Below are positions 8,707 through 60,183 of a stretch of DNA of 64,000 nucleotides, in pieces. This stretch comes from an uncultured Bacteroidota bacterium (lineage in GTDB: Bacteria; Bacteroidota; Bacteroidia; JABEUT01): assembly GCA_903863935.1 (NCBI GenBank), contig CAIPDV010000104.1, positions 1-64,000 on the forward strand. The letters run 5' to 3'. A model generated the notes under the pieces. It made no database searches and was not told the DNA's origin. It saw only the letters and a list, made by a program, of their open reading frames with translations. Both the position numbers and the translations under genes were made by a program. Every line of letters begins with the position of its first letter. The stretch's first letter is position 1.

Positions 8707-11700
8707 TTACCTGATCAATTGAATATACCCGTCCAGCTTGAAGTTTTTACCTGCGTAATCGGTAGCATCAAGAACATAGTAATACGTACCGTCTGTTTCC
8801 ATTACACCTGAAGAACTTCTGCCTGTCCAGTCAATATTCGGATTGTTGGTTTCAAATATTTTCTGTCCCCACCTGTTAAATATCTGGAAATTAAAAGTCT
8901 GCATGCTTCCTGCCCGGATGTGTAACACATCATTAACACCATCTCCATTTGGAGTAAACACATTCGGCACTACAATCTGTTCAATAACATATATATCTTT
9001 AGTAAGTGTATCAGTACAGCCATATTGATTGGTCGCAACAAGGGTTACTATATAAGTGCCTGCTATATTATATTCATGGAATGGTGTAGTATCGCTACTT
9101 GTAGAACCATCGCCCAACGTCCAGTAATAGGTATTATTACCACCTGTAAGGTTTACAAAGTTCACAAAACCACCACCGTCAATTGTATCCGGTGTAGGGT
9201 AAAATGAAATTGCGGGTGCTGGTCTTACAACCACGTTTACCGTGTCGATAGATATGTCTCCGCAACCATCTGTAATGGTGCATATATACTGGTAAGGTGG
9301 AGGTGTTACTGTTAATGGACCTGCACTATCCCATGTAATTCCATTGTTCCATGCATAGGTATAAGGTGAATGACCGCCTGATGGCGAAACACTGATAACA
9401 GCCTTGCCTGCTCCTGAACAAACGGTATCTCTGCTGGTAGTAACTACTAAACCTGAATATATTTTGATTCTCTTTTTAATAGAATCTTTACATCCGCCAT
9501 TGCTACCAATAACAGAAATAGTGCTGTCACTATTAATAGTAATTGTAGTTGGATTAGTTGTGGAACCATTGCTCCATAAATAGGTGGTTGCTCCGGATGC
9601 AGTAACTGTAACTGGAGTTCCTTTACAAACCGTGTCTGACGAGGTTATGGCAACCGTTGGGGTTGGAACCACGGTAATAACTTGTCCAATGGAATCATTG
9701 GCACATTTTCCTGCCGTTATCACATAATAAGTTGTAGTGAATGCCGGGTTAACAGTAATGGAAGAAGTTGTAGCTCCAGTATTCCATATATAACTTGGAG
9801 GACCACTTGAAGAACTAACTGTTAAGGTAACTGAACCACCAGGACATACGGTATCCGAAGAAACTGCAATTGTCGATTTAATACTTGGTGTTACATAAAT
9901 GGTTACCATAGCCGAATCCTGACAAGTAGTGGATGGTGTAAACACATGTAACGTATAGGTAGTAGTTACAAGAGGAACAACATTAATAGTACTGGTTGTT
10001 GCGCCAGTGCTCCATACATAACTTCCACCACCAGCGGTGAGTTTAACAGTATCGCCGGAACAGATGGAATCTTTTGCAGTACTCAATAAGGCTATAGGAG
10101 GCGCACTGATACTTACAGTAAATGTGGTGCTTGCAGCTCCACAAGCGTTTGTAACTGTTACAAGATAAACAGTTTGACTAACCGGAGAAACAGTAATAGA
10201 AGAAGTTGTAGCTCCTGTATTCCAGAAGTAAGAAGTTCCGCCTGAAGCAGTAAGGGTATCAACCCCACCGTTACAAACTGAATCACCACCGGTTATCACA
10301 GCCACAGGAACACCAAGTATGGTTACCACCTGTCTGATAGTATCAGGGCATGGGCCACCGTTCTTAGCTACTAAAGTAACTGTATAAGTTCCCGCAACGG
10401 TATAGGTATGTGACCCATTAATTAAAATAGTAGAGGTATCGTTCGGGTTCGAAGCCGGATCGCCGTAATTCCAGTAATAGGATGTTGCCCCTACTGAAGT
10501 ATTATTGAATGTAATTGTGGCCGGGGCGCATGTAGTGCTGGCAAAGTTAAACCCGCCTGCAACGGAAGGCAATACCGTAACAGTTATTAGGGTATCAGCT
10601 CCGCAGCCGTTATATACTTCATGCAGTTTTACGGTATAGGTTCCCGGTGTCGAATAGATCCACGTCGGGTTAGTAATTAACGAATCCTGATAGGTTCCTA
10701 TGTTGTAAAAATCCCAATAAAATGTTGCACCAACAATAGGATTTGATGTATTTGTAAAGGTTGTTGACTGACCCGCACAGATCGTATCAGCATGGAAACT
10801 TGGTTTTGGAACAGGACCTAATGCCTTTCCAATTTTTATGGTTAAAGTATCTGTACATTGATTATTACCACCTATCATTATAACTTGGTAAGTTCCTGCA
10901 CTGTCAACATAGATTGTCTGTAGTGTATCGTTACCTAAGATTCCAATTGACGGATTTCCTGACCATCTGTAACTTGCCCACCCAGGAGGAGCTGTTAAGG
11001 AGATTGAATCCTGTCCACAAAATGCAGTAGATGAAGAAATAACTGCATTTGGTGTACAACTTGCATCTACGTATGCATACCCGCAGTGACCTGAAGGTTG
11101 ACAATCCTGCACTTGAAAAACTACTGTAACGCATTGCCCAACATAGTTTTTCAAAGGTACATTAACAATTGACCAGCCTTTCCAGTAAATGGTATCGGTT
11201 CTTGGAGTATAAACAGTTCCATGGAAACCGGGTGAATTATACCCATATAATGCATTTTGATTAAAACTTCCGCAACCCGGAATTGTGTCACCATTCTGAT
11301 CTATTACGGCAACCGAGAAAAATGCTTGTTGATAATAAAGGTGATGTGGTGTTGGTTCTTCAAGAAAAACTGCGTACTGATATGTAAGACTTGACGTTAA
11401 CGACGCCACTTTAAAGGTTTGAGTTAAAATTGCAGTTCCTTTTCCGTTATTGATACTATCCCCCAACATAACAGAATATTTCCCACCATAAGGTGAAACC
11501 TGCGGAACGGAATAAGTGGAATATGTGTTTAAAAACCAGTCGCTTGCTGCGCCTGATGTTATTCTAAGCTGATAGGTATTACCGGTGTTAGGGTCTTGTG
11601 CTGCTTTTGAAACGGCACCCAGATATCCGCCTGTAATTCCTGTAATATTAAAAGCTGTTGTTGAAGAATTATTTATACCATAATATCCATACCAGCCTGT

Positions 11701-55719: not shown

Positions 55720-57660
55720 TTATAGTGTAATAAATAAAGCTTTATGTCCTTTCTTCTTTTTGTCTATGAAGTTTCTGGCGGCCGTAAGTATATCATCGGT
55801 GCTATACCCGCATTCTTTATATAGTTCCTGTTGGGTTCCATGTTCTATTACTTTGTCAGGTATTCCAAGCCTTATAACTGTGGCATTGTAATTATTATCG
55901 GCCATAAACTCCAGGATTGCACTACCCATACCACCCATCAGGCAGCCATCTTCGACTGTAATTACTTTATTGAAATTTTTAAATACTTCATGCAGCATTT
56001 CTTCGTCAATCGGTTTCACAAAACGCATATCATAATGTGCTGCGCTTATGCCTTCATTCTCCAACGTTTTGCATGCATCAAGGGCAAAATTGCCAGGGTG
56101 TCCGATTGTTAAAATAGCGAGATCGGATCCATCTTTTATTTTCCTTCCTTTTCCAATTTGTATTTCAGTGAAAGGTTGTTTCCAGTCAATAATGGCACCA
56201 TTTCCACGTGGATAACGAATTGAAAATGGATTTGTAATTTTATCGAGTTGGGCTGTATACATCAGGTTCCTCAGTTCAATTTCATTCATAGGAGCTGAAA
56301 CAATCATATTCGGGATACATCTGAAATATGCTAAATCAAAATTACCGTGGTGTGTTGGCCCATCTGAACCGGCAACCCCTCCTCTATCCAGGCAAAAAAC
56401 AACTTTCAGGTTTTGAATAGCCACGTCATGTATCACCTGATCATAGGCCCGCTGCATGAATGAAGAATAGATATTACAAAAAGGAATTAGTCCTCTAGTA
56501 GCAAGTCCCGCAGAGAAAGTAACTGCATGTTGTTCTGCAATGCCTACATCGAATGCCCTATCAGGCATGGCTTTCATCATAATATTCAATGATGAGCCCG
56601 ACGCCATTGCTGGCGTAATACCCATTATCTTGTCATTTTTCTCAGCCAATTCAACCAGAGTAATTCCAAACACATCCTGGTACTTGGGTGGTTGCGGTTT
56701 AGTGGATGAAGATTTAACAAGTTCTCCCGTATCCTTATTAAATGTACCTGGCGAGTGCCAGAGCGTCTGATCGCCTTCTTCCGAAAATTTATATCCTTTA
56801 CCTTTTAATGTGAGAACGTGCAATATTTTAGGTCCGGGGATTTTTTTGAGATCATTTAAAACCTTTGCGAGATGAACCACATCATGCCCGTCAACCGGCC
56901 CGAAATAGCGGAAATGCAACGACTCGAAAACATTACTCTGATTGAGCAACGATGTTTTAACCGCATTTTCAATCTTGGCAACTATGTCCTGGGCATTTGG
57001 TCCGAATTTGCTGACTTTACCCAACAAGCGCCACACCTCATCCTTAACTTTATTGTAAGTGGGTGATGTAGTCATGTTGGTTAGATACTCACGCAATGCG
57101 CCTACGTTCGGGTCAATTGACATACAGTTGTCATTCAACACTACTAAAATGTCAGCTTTAGATGTTCCGGCATTATTCAATCCTTCAAAAGCAAGTCCGG
57201 CGGTCATGGCACCATCTCCAATAACTGCTATATGTTTGCGGTCAAATTCTTTTTTGTATTTGGAGGCGACAGCCATTCCAAGTCCCGCTGAAATAGATGT
57301 TGAAGTATGCCCTACTCCAAATGAATCATATTCACTTTCGTGGCGATTAGGAAACCCACTAATGCCTTTATAGAGGCGGTTTGTATGAAATGCTTTTCTT
57401 CTTCCGGTAAGTATTTTATGCCCGTAAGCCTGATGACCTGTGTCCCACACCAATTGGTCATAAGGAGTATTGAAAATATAATGCAATGCTACAGTAAGTT
57501 CTACTACCCCCAGGCTACCGCCGAAGTGTCCGCCTTTTTCCGATACAAGGTCAATGATAAACTGGCGCAATTCTGCACATACAGTAGGTAAATCCTCGTA
57601 CTTCAGTTTTCTGAGGTCGGCAGGATATTCTATTTGATTGAGGAATTTATTCTCTCCCAT
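55720..57660 (-). CDS. dxs: 1-deoxy-D-xylulose-5-phosphate synthase
   Basis: 'GHFGGSLGVVELTVALHYIFNTPYDQLVWDTGHQAYGHKILTGRR', 'GDGAMTAGLAFEGLNN', 'DVGIAEQHAVTFSAGLA'. Confidence 0.97.
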   Translation of the reverse strand: MGENKFLNQIEYPADLRKLKYEDLPTVCAELRQFIIDLVSEKGGHFGGSLGVVELTVALHYIFNTPYDQLVWDTGHQAYGHKILTGRRKAFHTNRLYKGISGFPNRHESEYDSFGVGHTSTSISAGLGMAVASKYKKEFDRKHIAVIGDGAMTAGLAFEGLNNAGTSKADILVVLNDNCMSIDPNVGALREYLTNMTTSPTYNKVKDEVWRLLGKVSKFGPNAQDIVAKIENAVKTSLLNQSNVFESLHFRYFGPVDGHDVVHLAKVLNDLKKIPGPKILHVLTLKGKGYKFSEEGDQTLWHSPGTFNKDTGELVKSSSTKPQPPKYQDVFGITLVELAEKNDKIMGITPAMASGSSLNIMMKAMPDRAFDVGIAEQHAVTFSAGLATRGLIPFCNIYSSFMQRAYDQVIHDVAIQNLKVVFCLDRGGVAGSDGPTHHGNFDLAYFRCIPNMIVSAPMNEIELRNLMYTAQLDKITNPFSIRYPRGNGAIIDWKQPFTEIQIGKGRKIKDGSDLAILTIGHPGNFALDACKTLENEGISAAHYDMRFVKPIDEEMLHEVFKNFNKVITVEDGCLMGGMGSAILEFMADNNYNATVIRLGIPDKVIEHGTQQELYKECGYSTDDILTAARNFIDKKKKGHKALFITL

Positions 57661-57699: not shown

Positions 57700-57816
57700 G
57701 AACAAATAACCCCATTTTTGGGTGGAAATTGTTTACACATTATTAACCAGTCTGTTTAACTGCCGAATTCGGGCTATGGTAAAGGAAATGAGATGGATGT
57801 TAAAGTGTGTTAATCA

Positions 57817-57868
57817 CTATTTCCCCTTCCCCACTTCCCCCATTGCCGGTCCACGCACCATCAAGGAT
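57817..57868 (-). pseudogene. Putative remnant/duplicate of a pafA-type gene 3' end
   Basis: Minus strand encodes ...GPAMGEVGKGK*, compared with ...GQAMGEVGKK* at the end of the 58531-60183 CDS; imperfect nucleotide similarity over about 50 bp. Confidence 0.5.
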
Positions 57869-57872
57869 AGTA

Positions 57873-58148
57873 TTATATAACAGACTCTTTTCTCTTATTC
57901 GCCTTTTTAGCGTCCTTTTCGAGCAAAAACAAATGTTCCCCCAAAAAATCCATTTCGTCATCACCCCAAATTAATAATCCGTTTTCGGCTCTCACTTTTT
58001 TAAACAAACTCAAGTTTTTGAATTTGGTAAACATTGGATTAGTTTCCTCAAAAAGAAAGTCTTTGAAATTAAAATCTTTTATCAGCCCGTTTTTAAAAGC
58101 GACTTGGAGGATGTAGTTTCTTATATATTTGACACCTATTATATACAT
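57873..58148 (-). CDS. DUF2442-like protein
   Basis: 'VKYIRNYILQVAFKNGLIKDFNFKDFL...GLLIWGDDEMDFLGEHLF' resembles DUF2442; adjacent to a DUF4160-like gene. Confidence 0.75.
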   Translation of the reverse strand: MYIIGVKYIRNYILQVAFKNGLIKDFNFKDFLFEETNPMFTKFKNLSLFKKVRAENGLLIWGDDEMDFLGEHLFLLEKDAKKANKRKESVI

Positions 58149-58149
58149 A

Positions 58150-58458
58150 TCAAACTATTTTAGTAATTATCTTTTTGTTTTTACTCATTTTTCTATGCAC
58201 AACATCAATAAAATCGTTCGCCATCTCATCTTTATAACGTTCCACCAGTTTCTTTAAATCCTTTACTAGTGCTGGACCAAAAGGTTTAAACCCTTTGAGT
58301 TTTTTGTATTCTACTTTAACAACTTTACCTTCCATCATTGTAAAAACAATACGCACTCCAAAATCACTTCCTGAGAATGCATGAACATGCACCGGTTCGT
58401 GATCTTTAGGGAAAACCCTTATCTTAATACTCTTATAACTGAATATTGTTGGTGCCAT
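58150..58458 (-). CDS. DUF4160-like protein
   Basis: 'APTIFSYKSIKIRVFPKDHEPVHVHAFSG' with the HEPVHVHA motif. Confidence 0.85.
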   Translation of the reverse strand: MAPTIFSYKSIKIRVFPKDHEPVHVHAFSGSDFGVRIVFTMMEGKVVKVEYKKLKGFKPFGPALVKDLKKLVERYKDEMANDFIDVVHRKMSKNKKIITKIV

Positions 58459-58463
58459 AAACG

Positions 58464-58471
58464 CAAATTTA
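58464..58471 (-). promoter_or_regulatory. -7 element TAAATTTG, 5 nt from the DUF4160-like start codon
   Basis: CAAATTTA on plus. Confidence 0.45.
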
Positions 58472-58509
58472 CGAAATTGTTTGTCAATTCTACTTCAATA
58501 AAAACCTTA

Positions 58510-58530
58510 ATTCAAAATCAACATCCAACA
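58510..58530. repeat. Heptamer-like words ATTCAAA/ATCAAC/ATCCAAC at the pafA-proximal edge of the DUF4160/DUF2442 block
   Basis: Similar words to the 15390-15417 array. Confidence 0.5.
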
Positions 58531-60183
58531 TTATTTCTTCCCCACCTCTCCCATCGCTTGTCCCATGCATCCATCGGGATTTGGAATATGCAACAGCCAC
58601 GAAACTGTTGGGGCTATATTGGTAATAGCTTCCTCCTTTGGAGTAGAACCATGTTTTATTTCCCCGCCCCAGAAAAGCAGTGGCACATGCGCATCATAAT
58701 CATAGGGAGCCCCGTGGGTGGTGCCAGTTTTGGCATAACTGAGCCAGTTTGGAAGCAGGTTAATAATTACATCGCCGGAGCGGTCTGCTTTATACCCGTT
58801 TAATATTTTAGTATTAATAAAATCCCTATTTATTGAACCTAATTTGTAAGCAGGAATTGCACGCTCTACTCCCGGCCATTGGCCCGCAATTTTGGCTATT
58901 TCCGCTTCTACCGAATCATTATTAATTGGTAAGTGTGTTTGCTCAACAATGGAAGGCATAATAAATTCAATATAAAATTGTTGATTGGTAAATTCAAGAG
59001 CTACATCGCCCCCATATTTCGAATTGAGGTATTCATTCTCTTTTGCCAAAAGAGCTTTTTCGTCAAGGTATCCGGCAGGAACGCCTTTATCTACCAGGTA
59101 TTGCGCATTGATAGCCGCACCATGATCAGCAGTTAAGAATACGAGCACATTGTTTTTACCAATGTATTTATCAATGAATGTCAACAACGTGTCAAGGTCT
59201 TTATCCAAACGGATATAGGTATCCTCTAACTCGATAGACTCCGTGCCAAACTGGTGCCCCACATAGTCTGTTGATGAAAAACTTATTGTCAACATATCCG
59301 TTTCATCGCCTTTTCCAAGGTTCTCATTTTTGATGGTTTGTATGGCAAAGTCTTTGGTTAAATCATCTCCAAATGGAGTTGCTTTTATTAATCCACATCC
59401 TCCGTTCTTCTCCATTAACACAGGTAAGTTATGAGGAAATATCGGCGCACTTTCAGTTTTATACGGCTTTTCATATTTGTTATCATCCTCCATACTCTCT
59501 GTATAATCCTTCAATGGCAAGGATGCATACCAGGGAACACTCAAATATTTTTTCGCTCTTCCTTCCTGGTTAAAGGTCACAACCCATTGGGGCAAAAACT
59601 TCATATAATAGGTACTGGTAATAAAATTACCTGTGCTGTCGTCCAGCCAATAAGCCGCGTCAGCCCTATGCCCTGCGGGAAGGATAGATGCCCTGTCTTT
59701 TTGTGAAATACCAATTACTTTTGATTTGCCACCGTCACTAAGTTTTAAAGCATCACCAATAGTGCTTACCAACTCACGTTTTGGTGACATTTGCCCTGCT
59801 TTAGAAAAACTACCTACAGTACTTACCGAATCATCCTGGACACAATAAACCATAGATCCCGATTTCCTGTCATACCAGTCATTGGCTACAATGCCGCTCA
59901 TGCAAGGCGTTGCACCTGTGTATATGGCTGTATGCCCCGGCCCGGTATAGGTAGGAACGTAATTGTATTGCGCATTATCAAAAGAAAAACCTTCTTTCAT
60001 TAATCGCTTGAAACCGCCTTTGCCGAATTTACTGGCGTACTTATAAAGGTAATCATAGCGCATCTGGTCAACCACAATACCGATTACTAATTTAGGCCTG
60101 TGTTCATTTTTATTCTTGTTTTTATTCTCGCAAGATGAAAGAATAGAAATAAGAACAATTGCGGGTAAGAGTCTTTTTATCAT
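58531..60183 (-). CDS. Alkaline phosphatase family protein (PafA-like)
   Basis: 'KLVIGIVVDQMRYDYLYKYASKFGKGGFKRLMKEG', 'PTYTGPGHTAIYTGATP', 'VLVFLTADHGAAINAQYL', 'HGAPYDYDAHVPLLFWG'. Confidence 0.93.
   Translation of the reverse strand: MIKRLLPAIVLISILSSCENKNKNKNEHRPKLVIGIVVDQMRYDYLYKYASKFGKGGFKRLMKEGFSFDNAQYNYVPTYTGPGHTAIYTGATPCMSGIVANDWYDRKSGSMVYCVQDDSVSTVGSFSKAGQMSPKRELVSTIGDALKLSDGGKSKVIGISQKDRASILPAGHRADAAYWLDDSTGNFITSTYYMKFLPQWVVTFNQEGRAKKYLSVPWYASLPLKDYTESMEDDNKYEKPYKTESAPIFPHNLPVLMEKNGGCGLIKATPFGDDLTKDFAIQTIKNENLGKGDETDMLTISFSSTDYVGHQFGTESIELEDTYIRLDKDLDTLLTFIDKYIGKNNVLVFLTADHGAAINAQYLVDKGVPAGYLDEKALLAKENEYLNSKYGGDVALEFTNQQFYIEFIMPSIVEQTHLPINNDSVEAEIAKIAGQWPGVERAIPAYKLGSINRDFINTKILNGYKADRSGDVIINLLPNWLSYAKTGTTHGAPYDYDAHVPLLFWGGEIKHGSTPKEEAITNIAPTVSWLLHIPNPDGCMGQAMGEVGKK

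Follow-up and report, generated by a model that had tools for sequence, protein, structure and literature searches.

A two-gene DUF4160-DUF2442 module, which appears to be a toxin–antitoxin unit, lies between pafA and dxs in the window (the whole 64,000-nucleotide stretch of Bacteroidota DNA analysed here) and is framed by two diverged copies of the pafA 3′ end. It probably entered the pafA-dxs junction by a homology-assisted route in which the recipient's old gene tail was displaced. The same architecture behind other genes suggests that such modules spread by recombination events in which the host gene acquires a new tail while its old one is left behind.

All genes of the locus are read from the minus strand. 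The host gene pafA (58531..60183, minus strand) is intact and encodes a 550-aa alkaline phosphatase PafA (NCBIfam NF042991, 702 bits versus a cut-off of 650; Pfam PF01663), and its in-frame 3′ end (58531..58580, minus strand), which is the proximal copy of the repeat, specifies GQAMGEVGKK*. A 72-bp spacer (58459..58530, minus strand), the initial bases of which are similar to the post-stop sequence in the congeners G003 and G006, leads from the pafA stop codon to the start of the DUF4160 gene (58150..58458, minus strand; 102 aa), the presumed DhiT-like toxin. The DUF2442 gene (57873..58148, minus strand; 91 aa), the presumed DhiA-like antitoxin, follows on the same strand after a gap of 1 bp, and the insert of ∼700 bp holds only these two genes. 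The antitoxin stop codon is separated by a 4-bp joint (57869..57872, to which no strand applies) from the distal, orphan pafA 3′ end (57817..57868, 52 bp, minus strand), which reads GPAMGEVGKGK* and aligns with the proximal copy with two 1-bp gaps upstream of this stretch. The distance from the pafA stop codon (58531) to that of the tail (57817) is 714 bp; positions and tail sequences are as an earlier sequence-only reading of this DNA had described them. A conserved block, TTAACACACTTTAACATCC (57795..57813, minus strand), begins 3 bp past the orphan tail and likewise precedes dxs in G003 and G006, and dxs itself (55720..57660, minus strand) is the conserved gene that borders the insert opposite pafA. 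In its own genome pafA is single copy, and no second pafA paralogue was found there.

The window DUF4160 protein scores 22.1 bits with PF13711 (E 1.7e-4), 0.9 bits short of the cut-off of 23, and carries the family motif H-x-P-x-H-x-H, while the DUF2442 protein scores 25.7 bits with PF10387, above the cut-off of 23.9. The match of the latter to the NCBIfam DhiA equivalog model is weak (18.7 bits, E 0.0019) and far below the cut-off of 200, and thus we do not claim the window antitoxin as a DhiA orthologue. DUF4160 and DUF2442 form type II toxin–antitoxin systems, namely dhiTA of Dickeya dadantii and ‘PEM’ of a Thermus plasmid (PMC8198452, PMC12724237). Toxicity in two hosts, lack of toxicity of the pair and autoregulation are reported for dhiTA, and PEM is presented as a plasmid-persistence module (PMC8198452, PMC12724237). 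From homology and these published tests of relatives, we infer that the window pair is a DhiTA-type type II toxin–antitoxin module. The sequence-only reading had guessed at a toxin–antitoxin role, which is right and already in print (PMC8198452, PMC12724237), whereas its remark that the pair has no established function is out of date. A search of the PADLOC defence families gives no match, and a sequence search of solved structures returns nothing meaningful. Across the class, DUF4160 is usually partnered by DUF2442, loci initially scored as solo included, and the pair also occurs in the congeners G003 and G006. The genome of the window itself holds a second such pair (L054, G000:C42, ∼57.0-57.6 kb), the proteins of which are 43% and 38% identical to those of the window; it is tightly packed between other genes and has no flanking repeat.

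The framing of such modules by repeats recurs well beyond pafA. We compared 500 bp on each side of the module at 73 DUF4160 loci from class-level relatives, with a repeat defined by a score of at least 47, and used 246 matched gene units of similar size as controls. Long diverged direct repeats frame 12 of the 73 loci as opposed to none of the 246 control units (control maximum 40; Fisher p ∼1e-8), and a repeat is not seen in the other 61. A control built on random positions was dominated by internal repeats within long regions and was set aside for that reason. At 7 of the 12 framed loci the repeat duplicates the 3′ end of a gene that lies upstream in the same orientation: secA, tpiA, a gene the end of which resembles a T9SS-type C-terminal tail, and four more. 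The two secA copies (CGSGKKYKNCHGK*) show five differences, all of which are synonymous. Of eight loci, the window among them, five have the remnant starting 2–5 bp past the antitoxin stop codon and the others 24–64 bp past it, and the host stop codon precedes the toxin start by 7–72 bp, with the exception of L169 (240 bp). Repeats other than gene ends also occur (e.g. L156, L163 and L164). As we read the sequences, the duplicated segment is the 5′ start of an LD-carboxypeptidase-like gene at L148 and looks like the promoter of the downstream gene at L133. Direct repeats further frame 5 of 30 loci of the ParE toxin in the class (L215, L210, L193, L205 and L199; scores 69–340), and the scar therefore extends beyond one toxin family. 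Here the repeat is the 3′ end of a convergent gene at L215, covers the start codon at L199 (MIYSFQGYKPVI) and is something other than a gene end at L205. The congeneric secA (n = 5) and tpiA (n = 5) loci contain neither a module nor a second tail.

The tpiA locus indicates which of the two copies is native. In G195, the remnant and all of the ∼600 bp compared beyond it line up collinearly with G070, where the locus is uninterrupted, and the match breaks off sharply where the remnant starts. The intact G195 gene ends in KATVQ*, whereas the remnant ends in RAAI* and the G070 gene in KAAI*. Since the remnant is collinear with G070 and it is the intact C-terminus that deviates, the distal tpiA copy is the original 3′ end of the recipient; for secA, the relatives give no answer as to which copy is native. 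Pooled over seven loci, the differences between copies at codon positions 1/2/3 number 15/7/36 (36 of 58 at third positions) with no gaps, the latter result being one that local alignment favours through its preference for gap-free stretches. Addition of the window brings the third-position share to 41 of 64. The excess over the 0.46 expected under duplication and decay, a value that is our own estimate, is modest (p 0.01, or 0.003 with the window). The copies thus appear to fit a donor and a recipient allele, each diverged as part of a working gene, better than a duplication followed by decay, and the pooled codon positions support the earlier proposal that the second tail diverged as coding sequence before it was cut off.

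These same data bear on the best of the alternatives, a true long target-site duplication, in which a staggered break or a template switch copied 40–110 bp of the target and the distal one of two initially identical copies then decayed. In its favour, restriction–modification (R-M) genes are known to be framed by long target duplications that vary in length around 100 bp, and both in the window and in secA the two copies resemble one another more than they do most congeners. The gathering of differences at third codon positions speaks against it, as does the lack of gaps and early stop codons in the aligned part of the remnants at the seven loci, and at tpiA the deviating C-terminus belongs to the intact copy rather than to the remnant. 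Taken together, we regard a target-site duplication as a serious but rather unlikely origin.

Homology-assisted entry is favoured instead because the distal tpiA copy is native and because the third-position bias fits two alleles; we infer this route from these observations, as well as its extension to pafA itself. The incoming DNA would have consisted of the toxin–antitoxin module attached to the 3′ end of a related pafA gene. One join would have formed by homologous recombination in or at pafA and the other by an illegitimate event just behind the antitoxin stop codon, with the consequence that the pafA reading frame would stay complete. The last ∼50 bp of the recipient gene would have been displaced beyond the module, to lie beside the native upstream region of dxs and decay there. 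The donor molecule may have been linear or, in an alternative form, a circularised fragment integrated by one crossover. A bolder extension, to which we give little credence, is that DUF4160-DUF2442 modules (and those of ParE) are recombinase-free ‘addressed’ cassettes that use a borrowed end of a neighbouring gene as a homology address: recombination between the two copies would release them as a ∼700-bp minicircle, and a single RecA crossover would bring them into the same gene of another strain, replacing its tail.

Comparison of the pafA-dxs junction among congeners is consistent with insertion at this site. In G006 the distance between pafA and dxs is only 243 bp, with neither a module nor a second tail. 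In G008 (L038, G008:C79) the interval contains a different toxin–antitoxin module, composed of a ParE toxin (PF05016) and a 73-aa partner, and in G003 (L036, G003:C103, ∼9758-11075) it contains two unrelated genes on the opposite strand, one for a sigma-70-like protein of ∼210 aa and the other for a hypothetical protein. Neither of these two junctions has a second tail, with best scores of 17–24 compared with 53 in the window. From G006, G008 and G003, we therefore take the pafA-dxs junction to be a variable site and the orphan tail to belong with the insert of the window. The sequence-only reading had proposed that an old tail remained when the two-gene block came in at the 3′ end of pafA, and had pointed to related pafA-dxs intergenic regions as a check: the single tail of the module-free G006, the same architecture at other genes and the collinearity of the distal tpiA copy with the native locus of a relative all support it. 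In a further congener (L046, G007:C76), the sequence directly upstream of dxs resembles, as judged by eye, a phage terminase large subunit gene, which suggests a prophage at this junction. The window pafA keeps its level of identity to the G003 gene through to the 3′ end. As there is no such drop and the post-stop bases are like those of G003 and G006, the intact pafA end is not visibly foreign, and a donor would consequently have to be a close relative; no donor allele was found.

At pafA itself, the repeat is the weakest of the framed cases, and here an origin akin to a target-site duplication may apply. It is short and G-rich, its score of 32 under stringent scoring lies within the range of the controls (maximum 40), and it contains few changes, with five of six substitutions at third codon positions plus one 3-bp insertion. 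It might then be asked whether the tail resembles the pafA end by chance, whatever holds at other loci, a reading that the G-richness, the stringent score and a similar motif at G003:C58 would favour. The two tails share an ungapped core of 27 bp (81% identity, spacing 711), and their gapped local alignment scores 47 (55 with flanks), whereas the maximum among 20,000 dinucleotide shuffles is 42 (46.5 with flanks), such that the comparison with shuffled sequence that the sequence-only reading had put forward comes out in favour of the repeat, with 0 of 20,000 shuffles reaching the observed score. Among tiles of the 64-kb window, the best non-self match of the orphan tail is the window pafA end (47), with the next at 32.5; when 5,310 tiles from other loci are compared, the pafA end of G006 comes first (41), and the pafA end of G003 scores 34.5. 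With a Gumbel distribution fitted to 0.84 Mb of strand sequence, such scores are expected ∼0.05 times per genome and ∼4e-6 times in the 711-bp neighbourhood. The pattern ATGGGNGAN{0,2}GNGGGGAAR, which was composed with the G003 site already in view, occurs four times in 12 congeneric genomes, i.e. in the window tail, the window pafA end, the G006 pafA end and at one site in G003. Given that the best non-self matches are pafA ends (the G003:C58 motif excepted), that the differences are codon-like and that the strand and the position behind the antitoxin stop codon are the same as in independent loci, a chance resemblance is very improbable.

The G003 site (G003:C58; L087 1500-1526) is near-identical to the orphan tail over the G-rich stretch of the latter and lies ∼250 bp behind a degenerate DUF4160-DUF2442 pair; it may be a chance occurrence. 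We did not adopt it as evidence that the tail travels with the module because the pattern postdates the sighting, roughly two scores of this kind are expected in each genome, and the pair in G003 is not the same one and is degenerate. The orphan tail was also considered as a dispersed genomic repeat and rejected as such, with no further copy in its own genome and, genus-wide, only the G003:C58 motif besides the pafA ends. Least credible of all is a site-specific integration that restores gene 3′ ends, a behaviour to which the sequence-only reading had likened the locus, in the manner of elements that use tRNA or icd 3′ ends: the anatomy of an intact gene on one side and a displaced old tail on the other is shared, but the ∼700-bp insert carries no recombinase gene, the eight loci involve different gene ends with no common attachment core by inspection, and a few repeats correspond to the 5′ end of a gene or to promoter-like sequence (L148 and L133).

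The findings address the open question of how chromosomal toxin–antitoxin modules are mobilised when neither a transposase nor an integrase is involved. In these genomes, roughly one DUF4160 locus in six retains a readable scar, a diverged direct repeat that is often the end of a neighbouring gene, and where a relative without the insert reveals the native end, as at tpiA, the route becomes testable through filled and empty alleles and by transformation. By implication, a housekeeping gene next to the site can have its C-terminus exchanged when a module is acquired, tpiA being the example. The type of module and, for R-M genes, the insertion style are already known; what is new, judged against the open-access literature that was searched, is the recurrence of gene-end repeats with allele-like copies around toxin–antitoxin modules.

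As in dhiTA and PEM, the window module comprises the same two domains in adjacent genes with the toxin first. It differs from dhiTA in that its DUF4160 protein falls just below the Pfam cut-off and the DhiA model is weakly matched, and it is known here from its sequence; its flanking gene-end repeats have no counterpart in the passages on dhiTA and PEM (PMC8198452, PMC12724237). Direct repeats flanking one toxin–antitoxin pair are mentioned as recombination scars in a Mycoplasma study (PMC8562856). For R-M genes, ‘insertion with long target duplication’ has been described (Nobusato et al. 2000, as cited in PMC1643837, PMC3874152 and PMC3031569). In the terms in which those citing papers present it, that case likewise concerns a selfish-type unit without a known mobile element and long, variable direct repeats of target DNA. 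The absence of the insert at the site in G006 and in the secA and tpiA congeners, and the long direct repeats that frame the insert, are features in common with it; unlike it, the units here are toxin–antitoxin modules, the copies of which look like diverged alleles and not like a fresh duplication. Homology-facilitated illegitimate recombination and single-crossover integration with duplication of a gene end have been obtained experimentally in E. coli, where most integrants had a duplicated lacZ end, of 109–950 bp in the sequenced clones (PMC3240628), and displaced effector ends are found at Vibrio T6SS loci (PMC5361080). We take these cases, together with the R-M insertions, as precedents for the proposed route. 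The E. coli and Vibrio cases and ours share a homology anchor at one end and a duplicated gene end or displaced 3′ end behind the insert; whereas they concern laboratory constructs (PMC3240628) and effector–immunity loci (PMC5361080), the modules described here sit behind unrelated neighbours, secA and tpiA among them, and leave the host gene whole.
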